Position numbers and translations under genes: made by a program. This document shows positions 15,469-26,931 of a stretch of DNA of 64,000 bases, piece after piece. The stretch comes from Opitutales bacterium. GTDB taxonomy: Bacteria; Verrucomicrobiota; Verrucomicrobiia; Opitutales; JAJFLR01. The number at the start of each line of letters is the position of its first letter. The stretch's first letter is position 1. The DNA lies in NCBI GenBank assembly GCA_021772565.1, contig JAJFLR010000017.1, positions 1 to 64,000 of the forward strand, in the 5' to 3' direction. Below the pieces are notes generated by a model. That model was given only the letters and a program-made list of their open reading frames with translations, was not told the origin of the DNA and did not search any database.

Positions 15469-17232
15469 ATGAGTGCACGCCAAAATATAATACCTGGTTT
15501 ATACATCAGTTATAAAATAAAATTGGCCTTTGCCATTGTAATAATAGTCACAGCTGTTTCAACAGCCACTTTATTTCTAACTCAAATAAAGGTTAACGAA
15601 AATTATCAGCATTTTGTAAGTAATCTTTTCCAACAACAAGTAGAACTCTTTTTTGATAAGCGACAAACTCGATTATCTGCTGCTAGAGATGCCATTGAAG
15701 ATGCCACAACTAATGTAAGATTAATTGCTGCTCTCAATGCTAATGACATCGACAGATTTTATAGCGACCTAGCATTTGAACTCACCAAAATTGTTGAGCG
15801 TTATACCAGCAATGACTCACACCTTAAACCGTTGTTTCGATTTATTGACACAGATGGAAATTATATTTCCCCAAAATCCAATAATGCCGGATACCTCATG
15901 GGAATTCCCGAGAGTAATCTTTCACAAGTCTTTAAAGATATGCTGACCAACGCTTCTGATGACAACACCGATAATGTTGGTTATCTGAATTTCACAATTA
16001 TGGAGAAAAAACATCTATTTGAAATTTTAATCATGCCAATATTTGATCCAGGTACATTTTCACATATTGGTGATCTTGTATTCGCTGCACCAGTTAATTC
16101 CATCAGTAATATTTTAGGTGTCAGTACTCAATCAATGAAATCAGGCCTTTATCTCGATGGGGAATTTTATTCAGATACTATACCAGAAGAATACCAGGAT
16201 AATATTTGTAAAGAGTCGAAAAACGTTATTAAAGGCATTATTTCCAAACCTCCAAAAGTACTGATTGATAAAATCCCGCACTTAATTTTCACAAAATCAT
16301 TAGGTGAAAATTCTCAACTTCGTGATTTTTATCAAGTATCGTTATTTTCTTTGGATGAACTGCAATTATTATTAAAAAAAATTCGTTCAACCGTCATACT
16401 GTTTACTGTGATAGCATTAGCTACTGCTATTGGACTCAGTTTAGTTACTTCTCACAATATGACCAAACCAATTTTAAACCTGGTCAGTGGCACCAAGGAA
16501 GTAAAAAAGGGAAATTTTGATATACCGGTTCCAGTTACCAGTAACGATGAACTTGGGGTACTCACTCATTCATTTAATGAGATGACTAGTGAACTAGCAA
16601 TAAAAGAAAAAATGCGCAGTGTTCTCGATAAAATTACCGATCCAGATGTCCAGGAAGAACTGCTAAAAGGCAAAATGAAACTCGGTGGTGAAGACCGTGA
16701 TTTAACAATTTTATTTTGCGACATTCGTGGCTTTACTTCCTTAACTGAGGGTATGGCTCCGACCGATGTCATCCAGATGCTTAACGAGCATATGACGGCC
16801 ATGAAAAAAGAAGTTTCAAAATATAATGGTGTAGTCGACAAATTTGTTGGTGACGAAATCATGGCGATTTTTGGCGCCCCAAAAAGTTATGGCAACGACG
16901 CACTCAATGCTGCTCAGTGTGCTTTATCGATGATGCAAGCAAGAAAGAAACTCGATGAATCTGGAAAATATAAAATTAAGATTGGTATCGGATTAGCATC
17001 CGGAAAAGTTGTTGCCGGTAATATGGGTTCAGACGATCGACAAAGTTATACCGTTTTAGGAGCACGTGTAAATTTAGCAGCCAGACTTTGTAGCGCTGCC
17101 AAACCGATGGACATTCTCATTGATGATTTAACCTGCGAACGGATAGAAAATAAAATTAAAACTGATCCAATTGTAGATTTGAAATTAAAAGGATTCAGCT
17201 CTCAGATAGTGGCCTATAAACTGACCTGTTAA
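15469..17232 (+). CDS. Membrane class III adenylate cyclase with periplasmic sensor and HAMP
   Basis: Makes cAMP from ATP. Two membrane segments (about 17-38 and 306-327) enclose a periplasmic sensor of about 265 residues (Cache-like by length and position), then a HAMP linker (about 328-380) and a catalytic domain (about 408-587). Two metal Asp are present: FCDIRGFTS (Asp418) and FVGDEIMA (Asp462). Lys458 before FVGD and Thr528 in SYTVLG form the Lys/Thr pair of ATP-specific bacterial cyclases, and Asn535 and Arg539 in VNLAARL complete the transition-state set. The enzyme looks intact. A second, broken copy of its last 156 codons lies 440 bp downstream. The sensor ligand is unknown. Confidence 0.92.
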   Translation: MSARQNIIPGLYISYKIKLAFAIVIIVTAVSTATLFLTQIKVNENYQHFVSNLFQQQVELFFDKRQTRLSAARDAIEDATTNVRLIAALNANDIDRFYSDLAFELTKIVERYTSNDSHLKPLFRFIDTDGNYISPKSNNAGYLMGIPESNLSQVFKDMLTNASDDNTDNVGYLNFTIMEKKHLFEILIMPIFDPGTFSHIGDLVFAAPVNSISNILGVSTQSMKSGLYLDGEFYSDTIPEEYQDNICKESKNVIKGIISKPPKVLIDKIPHLIFTKSLGENSQLRDFYQVSLFSLDELQLLLKKIRSTVILFTVIALATAIGLSLVTSHNMTKPILNLVSGTKEVKKGNFDIPVPVTSNDELGVLTHSFNEMTSELAIKEKMRSVLDKITDPDVQEELLKGKMKLGGEDRDLTILFCDIRGFTSLTEGMAPTDVIQMLNEHMTAMKKEVSKYNGVVDKFVGDEIMAIFGAPKSYGNDALNAAQCALSMMQARKKLDESGKYKIKIGIGLASGKVVAGNMGSDDRQSYTVLGARVNLAARLCSAAKPMDILIDDLTCERIENKIKTDPIVDLKLKGFSSQIVAYKLTC

Positions 17233-17608: not shown

Positions 17609-17676
17609 TACGATCAGTTATTGTCGATACAGGACCTCTGGTTGCGGGTTTTGATCAGAGAGATTCTGTTCGATGA
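17605..17676 (+). pseudogene. PIN-domain toxin (VapC-like) truncated after 23 codons
   Basis: The GTG-started frame reads VIVDTGPLVAGFDQRD, the classic N-terminus of a PIN ribonuclease with the first metal Asp in the VDTGPLV motif. It then hits a TGA exactly where homology to the cyclase gene begins (17671). The remaining roughly 100 residues of a PIN toxin, with the other acidic residues, are missing, so it cannot be active. The breakpoint shares CGATG with the cyclase copy, suggesting illegitimate joining at a short homology. Confidence 0.72.
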
Positions 17677-18139
17677 CATCCAGATGCTCAACGAGCATAT
17701 GACAGCGATGAAAAAGGAAGTTTCAAAATATAATTGTGAAGTCGACAAATTTGTTGGTGACGATATCATGGCAATTTTTGGCGCCCCAAAAAGTTATGGC
17801 AACGACGCACTCAATGCCGTTCAAAGTGCAATCTCTATGATAAAAGCCAGAGAGGAACTCAACAATTCTGGAAAATATAGAATAAAAATCGGTATCGGTC
17901 TCGCACCAGGAAAAGTAGTTGCCGGTAATATGGCTTCAGACGATCGACAAAGTTATACTGTTTTAAGAGCACGTGTAAATTTAGCAGCCAGACTTTGTAG
18001 CGCTGCCAAACCGATGGATATTCTCATTGATGATTTAACCTGCGAACGGATAGACAATAAAATTAAAACTGACCCAATTAAAGATTTAAAATTAAAAGGC
18101 TTTAGTTGGTAAATTGTTGCATATAAGTTGATTAGTTAA
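17671..18139 (+). pseudogene. Broken duplicate of the adenylate cyclase catalytic end
   Basis: This 469-bp stretch aligns without any gap to 16764-17232, the last 156 codons of the upstream cyclase. It starts at the second half of the catalytic domain, after the first metal Asp, so it cannot form an active site. A frame entering from the toxin remnant reads through it. Changes include DEIMA to DDIMA, GASGK-type LASGKV to LAPGKV and VLGAR to VLRAR. A CAG codon of the parent is TAA here (18110-18112), after which IVAYKL is still recognisable. Substitutions are spread over the whole copy, so it is old or came from a paralogue. Confidence 0.85.
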
Positions 18140-18247: not shown

Positions 18248-18356
18248 GTTTCAATCCGCGTCTCGCCTTAGTGGCGAGACGAATGTTTTTTGTTTGAACA
18301 ACACGAGAATCAAGCATCAGTTTCAATCCGCGTCTCGCCTTGGTGGCGAGACGAAT
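18248..18356 (-). CRISPR. Type I-C CRISPR array: two repeats, one spacer
   Basis: Two 37-nt repeats (18248-18284 and 18320-18356) differ at one base and flank one 35-nt spacer. Read on the minus strand each repeat has an 8-bp stem, GTCTCGCC with GGCGAGAC around a 5-nt loop, and ends CGGATTGAAAC, the ending typical of type I-C repeats. The cas genes lie upstream on that strand with cas2 nearest, which fits the usual cas2-leader-array order. The repeat length may be 33 nt plus 4 chance-conserved bases; two copies cannot decide. No further repeat follows in the next 130 bp. I see no match to the spacer elsewhere in the window. Confidence 0.9.
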
Positions 18357-18591: not shown

Positions 18592-18888
18592 TCAAGCAAT
18601 CAAAACATCTAACTCAAGATTAGGAGGTTGTCCAACACCATGATGCTCTGTATGATCTTTGGCTTTAGAGTCCAAAAAATAAAAGCGCAATGAATCTTTT
18701 GATAAATCAATTTCTTTGAGTAATTTATCTCTTAATTCAACCCACTCTTTACGTCCAACCTGACATTCGAATACTGACTTCTGAACTCGAATACCGTAAG
18801 ATTCACATGTTTTGGCGACACGCCTTAATCGACGTGATCCTGCTTTTAGTTCAACGGTTGATACATCATAAGTTATGAGAATTAACAT
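18592..18888 (-). CDS. cas2: CRISPR integrase subunit Cas2
   Basis: 98 residues with the Cas2 ferredoxin-like start MLILITYDVSTVE and the RRLRRVAKTCESYGIRVQKSVFEC segment, which carries the usual Arg and Tyr positions. Cas2 dimers bridge two Cas1 dimers in the spacer integration complex. The gene starts 6 bp after cas1 ends and is last in the cas4-cas1-cas2 adaptation operon, next to the leader. Length and motifs fit type I-C. Confidence 0.96.
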   Translation of the reverse strand: MLILITYDVSTVELKAGSRRLRRVAKTCESYGIRVQKSVFECQVGRKEWVELRDKLLKEIDLSKDSLRFYFLDSKAKDHTEHHGVGQPPNLELDVLIA

Positions 18889-18894
18889 CGGTTA

Positions 18895-19929
18895 TTATTT
18901 ATATAAATAAGGAATGTATTCTGGTAAATCTCCACGTATTATGCGAGCCATAATCCTGGCCTGCATAAAAGGTATTTGTCCCATTCTACAGTTATGTTTC
19001 AGTAAGGGATGCTTTATCTCGTCTTGTTTTCTTTTTTGCCAACCTTGAACTAAACTTTTTCTTCCGGAGTCTGTGAGCTCAACAGCACCGCCTTCTCTTA
19101 ATTTAAAATGTTTTTCCTGAAGCTCTCCTCTATTTATAAGAGTAATGGCCATTCGATCAGCAAATGGTCGAAATTCTTCCATTAAGTCCAGTGCTAATGA
19201 CTCTCTGCCTGGTCGATCTGCATGTAGAAAACCGACAAATGGATCGAGCCCAATTGCTGTCAATGCGGAAACACAATCATGTCTTAAAAGTGCATAGAGA
19301 AAAGAAAGCACGCAATTCATGCGGTCTCGTGGTGGCCGTTTGTTTCGATTTTTAAATGAAAAACTTTTACGTCGCTCCGATTTTAGATGTAATTCAAAAA
19401 CTTCAAAGTAATGAGTCGCCGCCATTCCTTCAAAGCCTCGTAGTGCATCAATTGTGTCAACTGTCGTTAGAAGCCGAATTTGAGTTGTGATATTTGAAAC
19501 TGCCTTCTTAAGTTTCTCAACTTCGGAATTGGTTGAACATTCCCGAGCTGTACGTTGAATCAGCCATATACTGTTGCGCAATTTTCCTGCTATAATGTTT
19601 CTGACAATTATTTGACTCTTGATGGGATCGCTGGCTATCTCATGCTGATTACGTCGTAACATTACTGAACCGCGAGGCACCCCTTCGACACGTGCTTGTA
19701 ATCTACCATTTTCGTCAAGAAAATTTATGCTGACATCGTTTTCCCAACAGAGCTTCATTGCCGAGGGTGAAACCATAGTGTGCCCAAAAATAAGAATCGA
19801 CTCAAGGTTGTGAATAGGCAGTGACATTTTGAGTTCTCTATTTTCTTCAATACGTAACGATAGATGGTCTCTATGAATATAGAGCCCCGAGTTGAGAACA
19901 TAGAGAGTATTTTGAATAACCGGAGTCAT
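18895..19929 (-). CDS. cas1: CRISPR integrase Cas1, type I-C
   Basis: 344 residues beginning MTPVIQNTLYVLNSGLYIHRDH, typical of the I-C branch. The catalytic domain is intact: Glu in RMNCVLSFLYALLRHDC is preceded by the expected helical segment, then GFLHADRPGRESLALDLMEEFRP carries the metal His and Asp/Glu. Cas1 inserts prespacers at the leader-repeat border. It overlaps cas4 by 4 bp, so the two are translationally coupled. Confidence 0.97.
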   Translation of the reverse strand: MTPVIQNTLYVLNSGLYIHRDHLSLRIEENRELKMSLPIHNLESILIFGHTMVSPSAMKLCWENDVSINFLDENGRLQARVEGVPRGSVMLRRNQHEIASDPIKSQIIVRNIIAGKLRNSIWLIQRTARECSTNSEVEKLKKAVSNITTQIRLLTTVDTIDALRGFEGMAATHYFEVFELHLKSERRKSFSFKNRNKRPPRDRMNCVLSFLYALLRHDCVSALTAIGLDPFVGFLHADRPGRESLALDLMEEFRPFADRMAITLINRGELQEKHFKLREGGAVELTDSGRKSLVQGWQKRKQDEIKHPLLKHNCRMGQIPFMQARIMARIIRGDLPEYIPYLYK

Positions 19930-20543
19930 GTTTTCAATAATTGGTGAGATGCACGATTAATATTTTTATCGTCCAATTCCGGAACACATACCTCGTGCAA
20001 TGAACATCCTTCGCATTGCGGTTTCAACTCTGCCTTCGGGATAATCCCTTTTTCAAATAAATCTCTTACTGCTTCGATAGTTTCTCTGGTCTTTTTTCGT
20101 AATTGATTATCAAATATTATCTCTGATCGAGATTGAGATTTAACGTGAAAAATTAAACCCGCAGCAACAGAAAGTCCAAACATCTCTTCCAGACATAACG
20201 CCTGGGCGCATAATTGGATGGCGTCGTTATACCATTTATTTTTTCGTTTTTTTCCGCGCTTATAATCGACGGGGCGTGCTGCAATAATTTCTTTACCTTG
20301 CTTTTGTACTTCGACTAAATCTGCTTTGCCTGTTAACCCCAATTTTTCAGAAAATAGGGGTAGCGCTCGCAAGAGTAACCAACCGGCCCGAAGTTCAAAT
20401 CCTGCTTTATCAACATGCTCGTGCGCCTGATCTCCTTCGATGGTGTATTCATTTTCAACGAATATGCATTCGATATGAATTAAGGCACAGCGTCTCCTGC
20501 AATATTGATAATGATTTAATGAGCTGATTGGGATAATCGTCAT
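19926..20543 (-). CDS. cas4: Cas4 prespacer-processing exonuclease
   Basis: 205 residues with a RecB-type nuclease core. One cysteine of the iron-sulfur site lies in the N-terminal YCRRRCAL and the other three in CEGCSLHEVC near the C-terminus. The nuclease motif is PVDYKRGKKRK (Asp and Lys of the D-x-K type), with GDQAHEHVD upstream and the Gln-Tyr-type helix IQLCAQALCLEE. In type I-C, Cas4 trims prespacers so that they carry the correct PAM. It heads a cas4-cas1-cas2 unit that is separated from cas7 by a GC-richer insert, so it may need its own promoter. Confidence 0.95.
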   Translation of the reverse strand: MTIIPISSLNHYQYCRRRCALIHIECIFVENEYTIEGDQAHEHVDKAGFELRAGWLLLRALPLFSEKLGLTGKADLVEVQKQGKEIIAARPVDYKRGKKRKNKWYNDAIQLCAQALCLEEMFGLSVAAGLIFHVKSQSRSEIIFDNQLRKKTRETIEAVRDLFEKGIIPKAELKPQCEGCSLHEVCVPELDDKNINRASHQLLKT

Positions 20544-20752: not shown

Positions 20753-21670
20753 CTAAAGTTTTTCGATTACACTTACGCCCGTAGGTAAATTTTCGGAATC
20801 AAACTCAATCACATAATCGCTAAAATCTCTCGGGAATCTTTTGGCTTTATCATCATTGTCCGATAACAAACTTACTTTAACTCTCTCAAATAATGTATGT
20901 GCCGGTGCATTGCCGAGTTTGGAATCATGTTTAAATACAATCAAACGTCTGGCTGCCATCATTCCCCTTGAGGCGGAACGATCAAGATCAAACATATTTA
21001 ATAGCGACTGCCAGAATAACTCGAGATCCGTTTCATCAAATCCGGTGGATTGAGCCTCATTGGCAGATATAAAACCATGAGTCCGATAGAGTCCATAAGG
21101 CACGATTGATTTTCGGCCAATAGTTCCGGTTATATCGCCATGATTTTTTATTTGATTTTCTGCTTCTTTTACAGTGGCAACTGACTTGCGTGTTATGGAA
21201 ATTTCCTGCTGAAGAATCGGGTCTACCGATCGTGCAAAAACCATTTGAACAGGACCACGCACCTGACCACAGTTTACTTCAGTACTCATTACGGCACCAA
21301 AAGTTCTAACATCGTAAAAATGCTGACACATCCATCTTTGTGCTTTAGTTTGATCCTCGTGCTTTTTATCTTTTGATTTAAGATTGAGCGCTTCAAATGC
21401 TTTTTCATTTTGAAGATTTAATACCCTTTTATTCTTACCTCCTTTGGTTTGAAAATAAATCTCAAAGCCTGCTTCAGCCTCTTCTTCAGACTTGGCTTTT
21501 GCTGCGACAATATAATCGCGCACTTTTCGTTTGAGACAGCCGTCGGTCACTAGTCCATGAAAAGTTTGATGGTCGATTCGTGGTAAATTTCCTGAATCCG
21601 GATCACCGTTTGGATTTCCATCTTTAACATCAAAGAATAGAACAAAGTCATATCTATTTTGTATAGCCAT
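20753..21670 (-). CDS. cas7: Cascade backbone protein Cas7 (Csd2), type I-C
   Basis: 305 residues starting with the Csd2 signature RYDFVLFFDVKDGNPNGDPD, followed by LPRIDHQTFHGLVTDGCLKRKVRDYI. Later RTFGAVMSTEVNCGQVRGPVQ is the family's central motif. Cas7 polymerises along the crRNA and forms the backbone of the type I-C effector. It is the third cas gene of the cas5-cas8c-cas7 unit, 48 bp after cas8c. No truncation is seen. Confidence 0.97.
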   Translation of the reverse strand: MAIQNRYDFVLFFDVKDGNPNGDPDSGNLPRIDHQTFHGLVTDGCLKRKVRDYIVAAKAKSEEEAEAGFEIYFQTKGGKNKRVLNLQNEKAFEALNLKSKDKKHEDQTKAQRWMCQHFYDVRTFGAVMSTEVNCGQVRGPVQMVFARSVDPILQQEISITRKSVATVKEAENQIKNHGDITGTIGRKSIVPYGLYRTHGFISANEAQSTGFDETDLELFWQSLLNMFDLDRSASRGMMAARRLIVFKHDSKLGNAPAHTLFERVKVSLLSDNDDKAKRFPRDFSDYVIEFDSENLPTGVSVIEKL

Positions 21671-21718: not shown

Positions 21719-23602
21719 TTAGTTGTTATCATTAGTCTGACTTTCTTCAGTCTTTTCACTCCTAGATTTACCTTTTGCTTCGTCAGTATTTTCAAAATAG
21801 AAGCCGAGAGCAAACTCTCCTTGTTGAACCGGGTCGGTGTTTGTCGGAAAACCATGGTTTTTAATTATTTCGTTAGAAATATTAGTTAATCGAGTATCAT
21901 ACCATTTAGCATATCCTCGCCTTTTTTTATCATTAGAGATTTTACTGATATGGTTTTTTTGTGCATCAATCAGTAGTTTTCCCATAACGGTTGCTGGTGA
22001 AGCGGAGGCTCCTGCATAATATTTATCTACGATTGTTGCATTCAGGTCTCCAAGAGCTTCTTTTTGTATTCGTGACAAAAGTCGAAACATTCGCCCACAA
22101 TGATATGCAACACTCGAATCGAGTGGATTGAGTTCTGATTTCATATATTTATTGGTGTTATGATATTGATTATCGGTTTTATAAATTCGATTGAGTATTA
22201 GACGAATGAGCGCAGCTCTTTCCGGATTACAATCACCTTCTACCCCTATTCGTTTAGTGACTAATATGAGTAAACTTATTGGCAATGGCTTATTTCGTCC
22301 CAGCAAAGAAGCTTCCCATAGTGCATAACGATATTTTGCCATTTCGGCTTCGCTATCTTTTCCTTTCGTTTTAAAGTTTGATAACAATCGCCATAACGGC
22401 CACGTTTGATAATAATTTCCTCTATCTGAAAGAATTTTCTTATCAAGTTTCACTGGACGATCTAGAATAATTTTGAGTTCATTGAACCAAGACTCAACAT
22501 TTGCACAAGCTTCTGTTAATGGAATATCAATCCACCCTCTAACGATAGCACGTGCCGCATTGCCGCTTAATGCTAAACTATAAAATCGCGTTGATGAATT
22601 AGCAGCTACACCTGATAGTTTTCCGGCGTAGGGTGATTTGTAGACTTTAACTGCTACTATCGGAACAGGAAGTTTATCCTCTGAAGATTTAGTTATCCCA
22701 TCAATGCTATTATCATCTCCATAAAGACCATCTTTAAGACCTCCCCACTCAACTGCTTTAGCAGGATTGAGAACGGTTATTTCTTCACTAGGGAAAAATA
22801 AATAGATAGTTTCTTTGGTTCGATAGTGATAGTCAGGATCCCTTCCCATGAAATTGATTGCGCGTGTGTATGCTTCGACACCTATTTCACTCATCGGGCT
22901 AATTCTTGCCTTCTTCATACCATAGGACGAAAATGCATCTTTGTCGCCCGATACTAAAGCAACGCCACTGGTATTGCCATTGGGAATAACTTTGAGTCCT
23001 GTACCATGGGCATCAACTGGGACACACAGCTCACCAGTAACCAAACAAACTGCACTCTTTTTTTTCTGCGGTGCATTTTGCTTTTCAGTATTTTGTTGCT
23101 TAACCCACCACTCTTTGAGTTCAGGCCATTGAACTGCGAGACCGTCGAAATTTTCGACTTGAAATGTAATCCAATCAGCAGCTGATACTTTTAACTCATT
23201 TAATGCACTAATTGTTTGTTCATCAGTTTCAGTGTGAGTCGATTCCAGAAATGCGACAATCGCTAATATGCCCGGATGTTGAGTGTCTGCCGCAATTGAT
23301 TTCATCTGTTGCAGAAAAAGTTTCTGCGTTTCGATCGTGCGTTCTTTTACTTCAGGATTAAACCCGGGTAAAACCCGATCCAGAGTGTCTGCACCAAGGC
23401 ATGCAATGGCTCTAGAATTACGAGAGGGAATTTTAGAAATGTCTAATGTGAGACCCTCTTTGCCGTTCCCTAAAGGTGATATGCTTTTATAAATACCGTT
23501 AATATCGATATTAATGGAGAAGCGAATTTTTTGAGAAGTAAACTCGATAGCATCGAGAAGATGCTCTCGCTGGGCAAATTTATGAAGCTCTTGAAAAATC
23601 AT
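21719..23602 (-). CDS. cas8c: Cascade large subunit Cas8c (Csd1)
   Basis: 627 residues matching Csd1/Cas8c in length and wording: MIFQELHKFAQREHLLD start, AVCLVTGELCVPVDAHGTGLKV, ALVSGDKDAFSSYGMKKA, then DYHYRTKETIYLFFP and NSSTRFYSLALSGNAARAIVRGW. Cas8c recognises the PAM and, through internal initiation, also supplies the small Cas11c subunit in known I-C systems. Its start overlaps the end of cas5 by 4 bp. The C-terminal 130 residues, where Cas11c would lie, are intact. Confidence 0.96.
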   Translation of the reverse strand: MIFQELHKFAQREHLLDAIEFTSQKIRFSINIDINGIYKSISPLGNGKEGLTLDISKIPSRNSRAIACLGADTLDRVLPGFNPEVKERTIETQKLFLQQMKSIAADTQHPGILAIVAFLESTHTETDEQTISALNELKVSAADWITFQVENFDGLAVQWPELKEWWVKQQNTEKQNAPQKKKSAVCLVTGELCVPVDAHGTGLKVIPNGNTSGVALVSGDKDAFSSYGMKKARISPMSEIGVEAYTRAINFMGRDPDYHYRTKETIYLFFPSEEITVLNPAKAVEWGGLKDGLYGDDNSIDGITKSSEDKLPVPIVAVKVYKSPYAGKLSGVAANSSTRFYSLALSGNAARAIVRGWIDIPLTEACANVESWFNELKIILDRPVKLDKKILSDRGNYYQTWPLWRLLSNFKTKGKDSEAEMAKYRYALWEASLLGRNKPLPISLLILVTKRIGVEGDCNPERAALIRLILNRIYKTDNQYHNTNKYMKSELNPLDSSVAYHCGRMFRLLSRIQKEALGDLNATIVDKYYAGASASPATVMGKLLIDAQKNHISKISNDKKRRGYAKWYDTRLTNISNEIIKNHGFPTNTDPVQQGEFALGFYFENTDEAKGKSRSEKTEESQTNDNN

Positions 23603-24321
23603 GCTTCAGCCTTTTTGAAAAGGTTCATTCGCATTTTAGTTACGTCCAAAACTCCTTTTTCCAATTTTGCAGGAGCAAACAAGAATTTAGCTTCTTTGAA
23701 TAATGGTTTAATAACAGCATCCGAACTGAGATCGCGTTCCATATCGTAAAGCATCAATCCCAAATCGCGGCTGTCATCAAACACCTGTTCGTCGCCATTT
23801 GGTTTTGAGAAAAAAGCCGCGCACTCTTTAATTCCCAAATAGGGTTGCCTGAAACATTGCCCTTTAATACATCTACGTTCAAACATATCCTGATATTTCT
23901 TCGGATTGTCTTCTGCATTCGGATTACGAACAGTCATACTGGCTTCAATGATGTATGCAACATCGCGCAACATAATACTATTTCGCTGAGTGCGGTTTTC
24001 ACCCTGAATATCGTTTCGTCCGGCAGAATCGACAAAATAGGGCTGGAAATTCGTCGGGTCTTTTTTTATTTCATCAGGCTTACGACGACTAATCACACCT
24101 TGAATTTCATTTCTACGAACAGATATTTGTTGAATCGGTTTTAAGACGAGAATCCGGTCGATTTCATAAAATATTTGTGGTTTCCAGAATATCGCTTCTA
24201 ATACACCTCGTGCTGCCGAAGGTGTCATGACCGGGTAACTCAGTCGCTCGACTTTAAATTCAGGCGAAGTAAACAGAGCGTAGTCACTCCAGACTTTAAG
24301 CGATATTGGAATTTTTTTCAT
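23599..24321 (-). CDS. cas5: Cas5c (Cas5d), crRNA-processing endonuclease of type I-C
   Basis: 240 residues with the Cas5 RAMP fold: PISLKVWSDYALFTSPEFKVERLSY is typical of the I-C variant and is followed by MTPSAARGVLEAIFWKP. In type I-C, which lacks Cas6, this protein cleaves the repeat at the base of its hairpin and leaves an 11-nt 5' handle, then stays in Cascade. RQPYLGIKECAAFF is the usual C-terminal half motif. The gene begins 8 bp after the 49-codon gene, so both are read from the promoter near 24550. Confidence 0.96.
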   Translation of the reverse strand: MKKIPISLKVWSDYALFTSPEFKVERLSYPVMTPSAARGVLEAIFWKPQIFYEIDRILVLKPIQQISVRRNEIQGVISRRKPDEIKKDPTNFQPYFVDSAGRNDIQGENRTQRNSIMLRDVAYIIEASMTVRNPNAEDNPKKYQDMFERRCIKGQCFRQPYLGIKECAAFFSKPNGDEQVFDDSRDLGLMLYDMERDLSSDAVIKPLFKEAKFLFAPAKLEKGVLDVTKMRMNLFKKAEA

Positions 24322-24515: not shown

Positions 24516-24550
24516 TAGCAACAATTAGTAGAACAAAAATTTTATGTCAA
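24516..24550 (-). promoter_or_regulatory. Predicted cas operon promoter with embedded match to the adjacent guide
   Basis: On the minus strand a perfect TTGACA (24550-24545) is followed 15 nt later by ACTAAT (24529-24524, 4 of 6 to TATAAT). The segment 24531-24516 reads CTACTAATTGTTGCTA and matches the start of the guide-like sequence beside it (CTACTTATTGTAGCTA) at 14 of 16 positions. The match covers the predicted -10 region. A Cascade complex bound here should block transcription of orf49-cas5-cas8c-cas7. The -10 spacing is short (15 bp), so the exact promoter is uncertain. Confidence 0.65.
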
Positions 24551-24556
24551 TTAAAA

Positions 24557-24587
24557 ACCCCAAAAAAAATCAAATTTTTTTTGGGGT
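24557..24587 (-). terminator. Intrinsic terminator of the crRNA-like RNA
   Basis: Perfect 13-bp stem, ACCCCAAAAAAAA with TTTTTTTTGGGGT around a 5-nt loop, followed on the minus strand by TTTT. It ends the transcript that contains the repeat-like hairpin and guide, immediately before the TTGACA of the cas promoter. Confidence 0.88.
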
Positions 24588-24652
24588 GATATAATTCGCT
24601 TAATAGCTACAATAAGTAGGTTTCAATCCGCTCATCAACATTGATAAGAAAT
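24557..24652 (-). ncRNA. Candidate crRNA-like regulatory RNA (single pseudo-repeat, guide, terminator)
   Basis: Minus-strand order: a 33-nt repeat-like unit (24652-24620), a 32-nt guide-like segment (24619-24588), then a terminator hairpin. The unit ends CGGATTGAAAC, identical to the last 11 nt of the array repeats and equal to the 5' handle length left by Cas5c. Its stem is quite different in sequence (CTTATCA with TGATGAG, one G-T wobble, 4-nt loop) but keeps the fold. The terminator stem takes the place of the next repeat's hairpin. The guide's first 16 nt match the neighbouring cas promoter. Weak promoter elements are TTGTAA (24684-24679) and GATATT (24660-24655). Read-through from cas3 is also possible. 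CreR/CreA-type RNAs are the known parallel. Confidence 0.75.
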
Positions 24653-24696: not shown

Positions 24697-26931
24697 TTAT
24701 AAAATATTTCCTAGTGCAATCGCTTTATTATTAAAACCAATAAATTTATTATATGCTACATTCTCAGTAACAAAGCAGCCGTTACTTAATTCTTGTATCA
24801 ATGAATTATTACATGCCTCGCGAATGACAGAGCTACGAAGATTAATTGAATATGGCCCCATTTGACGCTGCAGTTTTCTATCCGGCGGTAAATCTCGGAA
24901 ATTGCACAACTCTAAAATTAACTTTTTTCCCTTTTCACTCCATGGAGCCAATACTGAATAAGAATCATCATTTTCAATCCAACGATAGTCGCGAGCTATC
25001 TGTTTAAACTGCAAACGTTCTGCACTACGTTCGATTGTTTTGGCATCTAAATTTGCACTGTTATAAAGTAGTCGAAAGTACTTCTGGATCGTATTAGCCG
25101 AAACTTGTGTTTGTTCATCATGTAAAAGCCCAAACGCGGTATTAGTTCCTGTAGTGTAAACGTTGTCACTAACGATCTTATCATTTTCAATTTCAACTAC
25201 AAAAACCGGCAATGGTTCCTTTGATTCGCTATTTCGATTGCAGCGCCCGGCTGTCTGAATTATGGAATCGAGTGGTCCTTTTGAACGATACGCCAGCGGA
25301 AAATCTACATCAACTCCGGCTTCAATTAATTGTGTGGAAAATGTTATACAACGCTGCTGAGTTTTCAATCGCATTTTAATCTCTGCCAAAACTTCCAAAC
25401 GGTGCATTGGGCACATCAAAGTCGAGAGATGAAAGACGCCATCGGAATTATTACTTAAATCACGGAATTGTCGCCAGGCTGCTTGCGCTGATTTCCGTGT
25501 ATTAAAAACAGCTAAAACTTGAAACGCACAACCAGATTTTTTTTCTTTTTCAATAAGTTCTTCGCAAAATGATTCAATTGACAACGGAGATGGCTCATTT
25601 CGTTTGATAATACGTGTTCGCTGGAATTCTGCATGATCAGACAAATTCATCGATTCGGGAATTATTTCTCTCATATTCTCAAAACCATCTGTTAGATTCA
25701 GTGATTTCTTGAATGCGGGTTGAGTAGCGGTGCAAAAGACCAGGCTAGTCCGACCAATTTCTACTAGAGCATTTAAACGTTTGAGCGTTGGATTCAATAA
25801 TCGAGAAGGGAATGTTTGACATTCATCAAATATAATAACGGCGTCCAATAATCGATGGACCTTACGGCAGGCAGAGGTTCGATTACTCATCAAGCTTTCA
25901 AAGAATTGAACATTTGTCGTGACAATAACTTCAGCGTTCCAGTTTTCCGAAGCCCGCTTTTCCCAAATCTCTGTTATTTCATCTTTATCCGAATTATCAG
26001 ATTTCCGACGCCATTCAGCTAATGAATGATGTTCAAGAACAACTCCTTCTCCCAGTGCCCCACTAATAACTTTAGCATTTTGTTCAATAATACTTGTGTA
26101 GGGTATGACATAAATTATGCGTTCAAATTTATGCTTAATCGCATGTTCAAGTGCAAATGCTAACGAAGATAATGTTTTGCCACCGCCTGTCGGTATTGTT
26201 AGTGAAAAAATACCCGATTCTGTTGTAACTCCTTGAGAGAAACATTTTTTAAATAATTGAGTGCGGATTTTATCGATACTATTCTCTTGTTTAAACTTAC
26301 TGACATATTTACGTAAACGTTTGCTCAATTCAGTCATAGCAATTGGCAAGTAAGGATTAATTGGCTTACCTTCTGTTTCTCTAAAGTGCCGTTCGGTATC
26401 GAGAAAATCCGCATCGACCAGAGCAGAAAAAATTATTCGTGTAGCAATTTCCCTATCAATCTCAGACAACTCGTCGAAGCTTTGGGGTTTAGTTAGTTTT
26501 TTATCACTGTCATCTTTAAAGGTCTTCCAGCAGGTCTCAAAAACTGTACTATTTGATATTAATTTATCTTCCAATTCTTTCGCATAATCATCAGTCCAAT
26601 TTTGTAATCCCATATGATGACCGGCAATACAGTTAGCCATCAATGGAGATTGCCATTTGTGATTTTGATAGAACATCCCAGCCCCAACCCATGCATGAGG
26701 AGTTGTTGAAGATTTGTCTTTAAGGTAATTCTGAAACTGATCCTGATATTTACCTAAATCATGCAACATGCCAAGCAATCGACCTGTTTTACTCCATGGA
26801 GTGTTTTTTAGAAAGTCAGCAGCTAATTTTGCAACTTCTTCAGCATGATGACTTAGTAATTGCCATTTACTTTTGTCTAATATTTTTTCTTTGTTTGAAT
26901 CGTTCGCAGTATGAGCATAAAACGGCATCAA
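24697..26931 (-). CDS. cas3: Cas3 nuclease-helicase, type I-C
   Basis: 744 residues. N-terminal HD nuclease: LSHHAEEVAKLAADF, MLHDLGKYQDQF (His57 and Asp58) and AGHHMG. Helicase: TGGGKT Walker A (248-253), the DEAH-type motif as FDECQTF (about 368-374), SLVFCTATQPAF, TFSTQLIEAGVDVDFP and QTAGRCNRN motif VI. It degrades DNA marked by Cascade. Unlike usual compact I-C operons, cas3 is separated from cas5 by 375 bp that hold a terminator, the crRNA-like element and the 49-codon gene, so cas3 can be expressed independently of Cascade. The upstream 279 bp are AT-rich with no gene. Confidence 0.97.
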   Translation of the reverse strand: MMPFYAHTANDSNKEKILDKSKWQLLSHHAEEVAKLAADFLKNTPWSKTGRLLGMLHDLGKYQDQFQNYLKDKSSTTPHAWVGAGMFYQNHKWQSPLMANCIAGHHMGLQNWTDDYAKELEDKLISNSTVFETCWKTFKDDSDKKLTKPQSFDELSEIDREIATRIIFSALVDADFLDTERHFRETEGKPINPYLPIAMTELSKRLRKYVSKFKQENSIDKIRTQLFKKCFSQGVTTESGIFSLTIPTGGGKTLSSLAFALEHAIKHKFERIIYVIPYTSIIEQNAKVISGALGEGVVLEHHSLAEWRRKSDNSDKDEITEIWEKRASENWNAEVIVTTNVQFFESLMSNRTSACRKVHRLLDAVIIFDECQTFPSRLLNPTLKRLNALVEIGRTSLVFCTATQPAFKKSLNLTDGFENMREIIPESMNLSDHAEFQRTRIIKRNEPSPLSIESFCEELIEKEKKSGCAFQVLAVFNTRKSAQAAWRQFRDLSNNSDGVFHLSTLMCPMHRLEVLAEIKMRLKTQQRCITFSTQLIEAGVDVDFPLAYRSKGPLDSIIQTAGRCNRNSESKEPLPVFVVEIENDKIVSDNVYTTGTNTAFGLLHDEQTQVSANTIQKYFRLLYNSANLDAKTIERSAERLQFKQIARDYRWIENDDSYSVLAPWSEKGKKLILELCNFRDLPPDRKLQRQMGPYSINLRSSVIREACNNSLIQELSNGCFVTENVAYNKFIGFNNKAIALGNIL

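Follow-up and report, generated by a model that had tools for sequence, protein, structure and literature searches.

The closest described counterparts of the element analysed here are the CreR RNAs, crRNA-like RNAs with an ectopic repeat in the cas locus and limited complementarity to the promoter of their own cas operon (Liu et al. 2023; per PMC12737573, PMC13131331). CreR has been published for types I-B, I-E and V-A (PMC13131331), and CreR autorepression is also summarised in PMC12737573. Related features occur in the CreA RNAs of CreTA modules. Haloarcula hispanica CreA (type I-B CreTA) is built from a degenerate repeat, a guide and a terminator and has no second repeat (PMC8501985). H. 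hubeiense CreA pairs at positions 1-5 and 7-11, with position 6 left free, next to a TTC PAM (PMC8501985), and CreA of the Acinetobacter type I-F CreTA module has a mismatch at position 6 (PMC10097628).

The element that we describe lies in the cas3-cas5c gap of a type I-C locus within a 64-kb stretch of DNA (hereafter the window, meaning the whole stretch analysed). It shares with CreR both the crRNA-like build around an ectopic repeat in the cas locus and the limited complementarity to what is presumably the promoter of its own cas operon. It differs from the I-B, I-E and V-A representatives in its subtype, in its predicted processing by Cas5c and in having one repeat followed by a terminator, whereas the CreR of Liu et al. 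2023 is reportedly a two-repeat mini-CRISPR. H. hispanica CreA likewise has one repeat and ends in a terminator, and the gap at position 6 recalls H. hubeiense CreA; in contrast to the H. hispanica RNA, which guards a toxin gene in a type I-B system, the element has its target ahead of cas5c in type I-C. Partial complementarity, an unpaired position 6 and Cascade as the (here predicted) repressor also connect it to the Acinetobacter CreA, which differs in its toxin target and its subtype. The type II-A tracr-L (Workman et al. 2021, cited in PMC10651486) is reportedly a naturally occurring single-guide RNA that directs the effector to the effector's own promoter, but it is based on Cas9 and a tracrRNA and is unrelated in sequence.

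Shmakov et al. 2023 (NAR gkad495) have reportedly catalogued crRNA-like elements in which a lone repeat stands close to cas genes and the spacer partly matches a cas promoter or the cargo of a toxin-antitoxin pair; such elements resemble ours in being standalone, cas-adjacent and partly matched to a promoter. No published type I-C CreR was found in the literature searched, and as this catalogue lay outside that search, we claim no priority. The element would be a CreR-type RNA in a subtype for which we found no published CreR, and its one-repeat, terminator-ended form was already known. An earlier note on this DNA had stressed the layout of one repeat with a terminator in place of the second; the layout itself stands, but not as a new form, since H. 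hispanica CreA has it (PMC8501985).

A solitary repeat, guide and terminator between cas3 and cas5c

Read along the minus strand, the locus comprises, in this order, cas3, the element, cas5c, cas8c, cas7, cas4, cas1, cas2 and the array. Upstream of the element lies cas3 (24697..26931; TIGR01587 and TIGR01596), and the first cas gene downstream of the target is cas5c (23599..24321; TIGR01876), whose product we take to be both the processing enzyme and the handle-binding subunit. There follow cas8c (21719..23602; TIGR01863), cas7 (csd2; 20753..21670; TIGR02589) and cas4, cas1c and cas2 (18592..20543; TIGR00372, TIGR03640 and TIGR01573). The NCBIfam scores of Cas5c, Cas8c, Cas7/Csd2 and Cas1c are all above cut-off and bear out the type I-C assignment of the earlier note, which was also correct in counting two array repeats: the array (18248..18356, minus strand) consists of two 37-nt repeats (18356-18320 and 18284-18248) and one 35-nt spacer. 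It is the sole CRISPR array found in the assembly and stands beside a full cas1-cas2-cas4 set. No further copies of the array repeat were found in the assembly. A search of viral contigs for the protospacer of the array spacer, from which the PAM might have been learned, gave no hit, and Rfam returned nothing relevant.

The gap between cas3 and cas5c measures 375 bp and has a GC content of 21.6%. Just downstream of the cas3 stop codon, it holds an element (24648-24552, minus strand) made up of a stem-loop, an 11-nt 5' handle, a 32-nt guide and an intrinsic terminator. The stem-loop (24631..24648), obtained by strand folding and with ViennaRNA, has 7 bp including one G-U pair and a 4-nt loop, and abuts the handle CGGATTGAAAC (24620..24630), which is the same as in the array repeats. 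The array repeat shows the same layout, with a 9-bp stem abutting the same 11 nt. In type I-C, Cas5c cuts at the stem base of the repeat and leaves an 11-nt handle. The pseudo-repeat as a whole, ATTTCTTATCAATGTTGATGAGCGGATTGAAAC (24652-24620), is identical to the array repeat at 20 of 34 positions, handle counted in, and is degenerate outside the handle.

The guide (24588..24619), of which positions 1-16 form the base-pairing part, is followed by the terminator (24552..24587), which takes the place where a second repeat would be. Folding and a terminator scan delimit it as a 14-bp stem and a T run; the hairpin itself spans 24587-24557 with the T tail after it, and the scan found one such terminator where shuffled sequence would lead one to expect 0.1. 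In folding stability, the element as a whole exceeds its dinucleotide shuffles by 3.6 SD. Both the 33-nt unit sharing its 11-nt end with the array repeats and the 32-nt guide with its terminator, as described in the earlier note, are thus real and lie on the minus strand. In the 3.57-Mb genome, CGGATTGAAAC is present in four copies: the two array repeats, the element and one on another contig. No second repeat was found near the element, where the best other 11-nt match reaches 7/11. It is not an ordinary CRISPR array, which would have at least two near-identical repeats around a spacer.

A partial match of the guide ahead of cas5c

In Cascade structures, every sixth base of a type I crRNA is flipped out and not read. 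The guide was therefore compared with every position of the window by counting matches from position 1 and leaving every sixth base out of the scoring. The best site, CTACTAATTGTTGCTA (24516..24531, minus strand), lies 88 bp downstream and agrees with the guide at 14 of 16 positions. When guide positions 1-16 are set against 24531-24516, the only mismatches fall at 6 and 12, and the matching ends at 16. Across the whole 64 kb, this site has 14 matched bases compared to nine for the runner-up, which sits in cas8c; no guide target was found at the cas3 promoter, the whole window having been scored. A search of the 3.57-Mb genome for the corresponding pattern, CTACTNATTGTNGCTA, gave two sites, namely the guide itself and the target; by chance, about 0.05 sites would be expected in the genome and 5e-6 in the gap. 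The best score was nine matches among 4,000 dinucleotide shuffles of the flanks and 11 among 4,000 shuffled guides, as against the 14 observed. Mismatches at 6 and 12 together with a stop at 16 are what type I R-loops with a seed-only match look like.

The PAM position of the target holds GTT (24532..24534, minus strand), with an ordinary TTC one base further on (24533-24531). A register shifted by one base, in which the guide starts later and TTC serves as PAM, was rejected: it would place the mismatches at 5 and 11, and the shift is also at odds with the other loci described below, whose register is the unshifted one.

The target starts 14 bp past a perfect TTGACA box (24545..24550, minus strand; direct reading), beyond the element's own terminator. 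With this terminator upstream, the cas5-8-7-4-1-2 operon needs a promoter here, and the box is its putative -35 element. The -10 is not clear-cut: a consensus promoter scan of the target region called no promoter, and the -10 box is weak. The target would presumably cover the expected -10/start region of the operon, whose promoter is itself presumed.

The element very probably represents a CreR-type cas-regulating RNA gene, whose Cas5c-processed product would lead Cascade to repress the cas5-8-7-4-1-2 operon. As in CreR, an ectopic repeat within the cas locus carries the features for processing, here the stem-loop and the exact 11-nt handle. The match to the target, which goes beyond the findings of the earlier note, is the strongest evidence that the sequence offers for this reading. 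In the mechanism that we infer, transcripts would arise by read-through from cas3 or from an own upstream promoter and end at the terminator. Cas5c would cut at the base of the degenerate stem-loop, and the processed RNA would start with CGGAUUGAAACCUACUU and comprise the 11-nt handle and a guide of about 32 nt with the terminator hairpin at its end. Carrying this RNA, Cascade would recognise 24531-24516, just past the TTGACA box, and form a short R-loop of about 16 bp, which may block RNA polymerase and would be too short to license cutting of the cell's own DNA by Cas3. Effector expression would thereby be autorepressed, and relief would come from array crRNAs competing for Cascade or from an anti-CRISPR that disables the complex. 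As the assembly has one spacer, little competing crRNA and hence strong repression would be expected.

The signature in other type I-C loci

The survey covered 172 loci with a Cas5c-like gene, 106 of them from a first survey and the rest from the same phylum. In each, the 1.2 kb upstream of cas5c were scanned for any GAAAC/T followed by a guide that matches another part of this region. When every sixth base was left free, 12 of the 172 loci reached at least 14 matches; the five other registers together yielded one such locus, and five rounds with swapped partners yielded two. Requiring at least 11 matches and a repeat-like tail gave a core set of 15 (L018, L029, L043, L044, L045, L051, L070, L073, L074, L100, L103, L131, L176, the window and L177, whose Cas5 is a distant match only and whose subtype is thus provisional). 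The signature is therefore present in about 15 of the 172 type I-C (or Cas5c-like) loci, window included, and more weakly in two further ones, L082 (10 matches) and L064, which probably also carry the element. L151 (11 matches) was discarded, its upstream sequence not being repeat-like. An earlier, stricter scan was anchored on repeat tails near cas5c, and there the right register gave scores of 10-15 for six of 11 candidates, compared to at most nine in any other.

Across these loci, the guides are unrelated, the mismatches fall in a common register and the elements lie upstream of cas5c. In most, 23-32 nt are followed by a strong hairpin, and a second repeat is absent. Among the 15 core loci, 10 have TTC immediately before the target and three have TTT, with GCT in L177 and GTT in the window. 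In four loci (L043, L070, L073 and L074), a TTGACA/TATAAT-like promoter stands before cas5c, and the target borders on it or overlaps it. L029 and L044 also bear the signature, but at a very short distance from cas5c and with no terminator; L029, with a second repeat tail, may reflect a local duplication. No close relatives were found in which guide and target could be followed for covariation, the family consisting of this genome alone. The majority of type I-C loci are without the element, which is for this reason an optional accessory and no core part of type I-C.

The earlier note had suggested a comparison with related loci, and this recurrence with unrelated guides in independent type I-C loci adds to the support that its proposal of a dedicated single-guide autoregulator gains, at the level of sequence, from a target where the promoter of the downstream cas operon presumably lies.

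Individual loci show further variation. The L064 element lies about 298 bp upstream of cas5c; its target lacks one base, precisely at position 6, a hint that an unread base can be dropped. In L043 and L082, the promoter region matched by the guide precedes the element on the cas5c strand, so that the RNA may repress its own transcription along with the cas operon. Between cas3 and cas5c, L018 (about -891 to -44, counted from cas5c) and L176 (about -855 to -23) carry on the opposite strand genes for a FitA-like antitoxin and a PIN-domain toxin, together with a solitary repeat. Their guides show 15 and 12 matches just upstream of the toxin gene, with ATTC before the target, and probably belong to a crRNA-guarded toxin-antitoxin pair in type I-C.

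We consider it rather likely that type I-C possesses a widespread class of one-repeat, terminator-ended guide RNAs that are aimed, depending on the lineage, at the cas5c promoter or at a resident toxin gene. A single repeat with guide and terminator would form a natural minimal regulatory gene since Cas5c keeps the 5' handle, and the I-C elements may have a single repeat because Cas5c stays there and a second repeat is needless for a 3' handle.

Alternatives to autoregulation

A small ORF, P0002 (24330..24479, minus strand; 49 aa; ORF reading), lies between the target and cas5c. It might represent a leader ORF, a gene or a spurious reading frame, and no relatives or family match were found for it. 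As it starts 36 bp past the target, the arrangement could also correspond to a CreTA-like addiction module in which RNA-guided Cascade represses a toxin, here P0002, that is freed upon loss of Cascade. Such a module has a parallel in L018 and L176 (same order), where the guide of a type I-C element matches just upstream of a PIN-domain toxin gene. We nevertheless regard it as improbable: the only candidate for a toxin gene under the targeted promoter is this orphan ORF, which ends 8 bp ahead of cas5c with no terminator between, so that one promoter most likely serves cas5c too, and in most other loci (L070, L073, L074, L051, L131) only the cas5c leader lies beyond the target.

A decayed leftover repeat with a fortuitous match downstream, or a local duplication of the promoter segment, would fit the degenerate repeat stem, the non-standard PAM and the AT-rich region (21.6% GC). 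This is very unlikely, as the handle, the stem-loop and the terminator have each stayed intact, none of the shuffles attains the observed match, the mismatches fall at two unread positions and the same register appears in unrelated loci; degeneration outside the handle is moreover typical of creA repeats (PMC9458426). It is extremely unlikely that the element acts as a Cascade sink in the manner of Racrs, solitary repeats (one against type I-C among them; PMC10651486) whose RNA ties up Cas proteins with no need of a DNA target, as it lies in a cellular cas locus and not in a phage or mobile element, has no phage match and carries a guide with a specific target.

Against the CreR-type reading itself weigh the weak -10, the absence of the element from most type I-C loci and the GTT in the best register, with TTC one base off, where other I-C elements mostly have TTC. 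If CreR-type autoregulation holds, type I-C would be added to the subtypes whose effector appears to control its own supply via a crRNA-like RNA. Pairing with every sixth base free would then serve as a sequence signature that finds such elements without RNA data, and the window, with one immune spacer in the assembly beside a dedicated regulatory guide, would make a sharp test case.

Elsewhere in the window, an adenylate/guanylate cyclase-like gene has 300 bp of its sequence duplicated (16764-17063 and 17671-17970) with 87% identity, the downstream copy being a partial gene copy.
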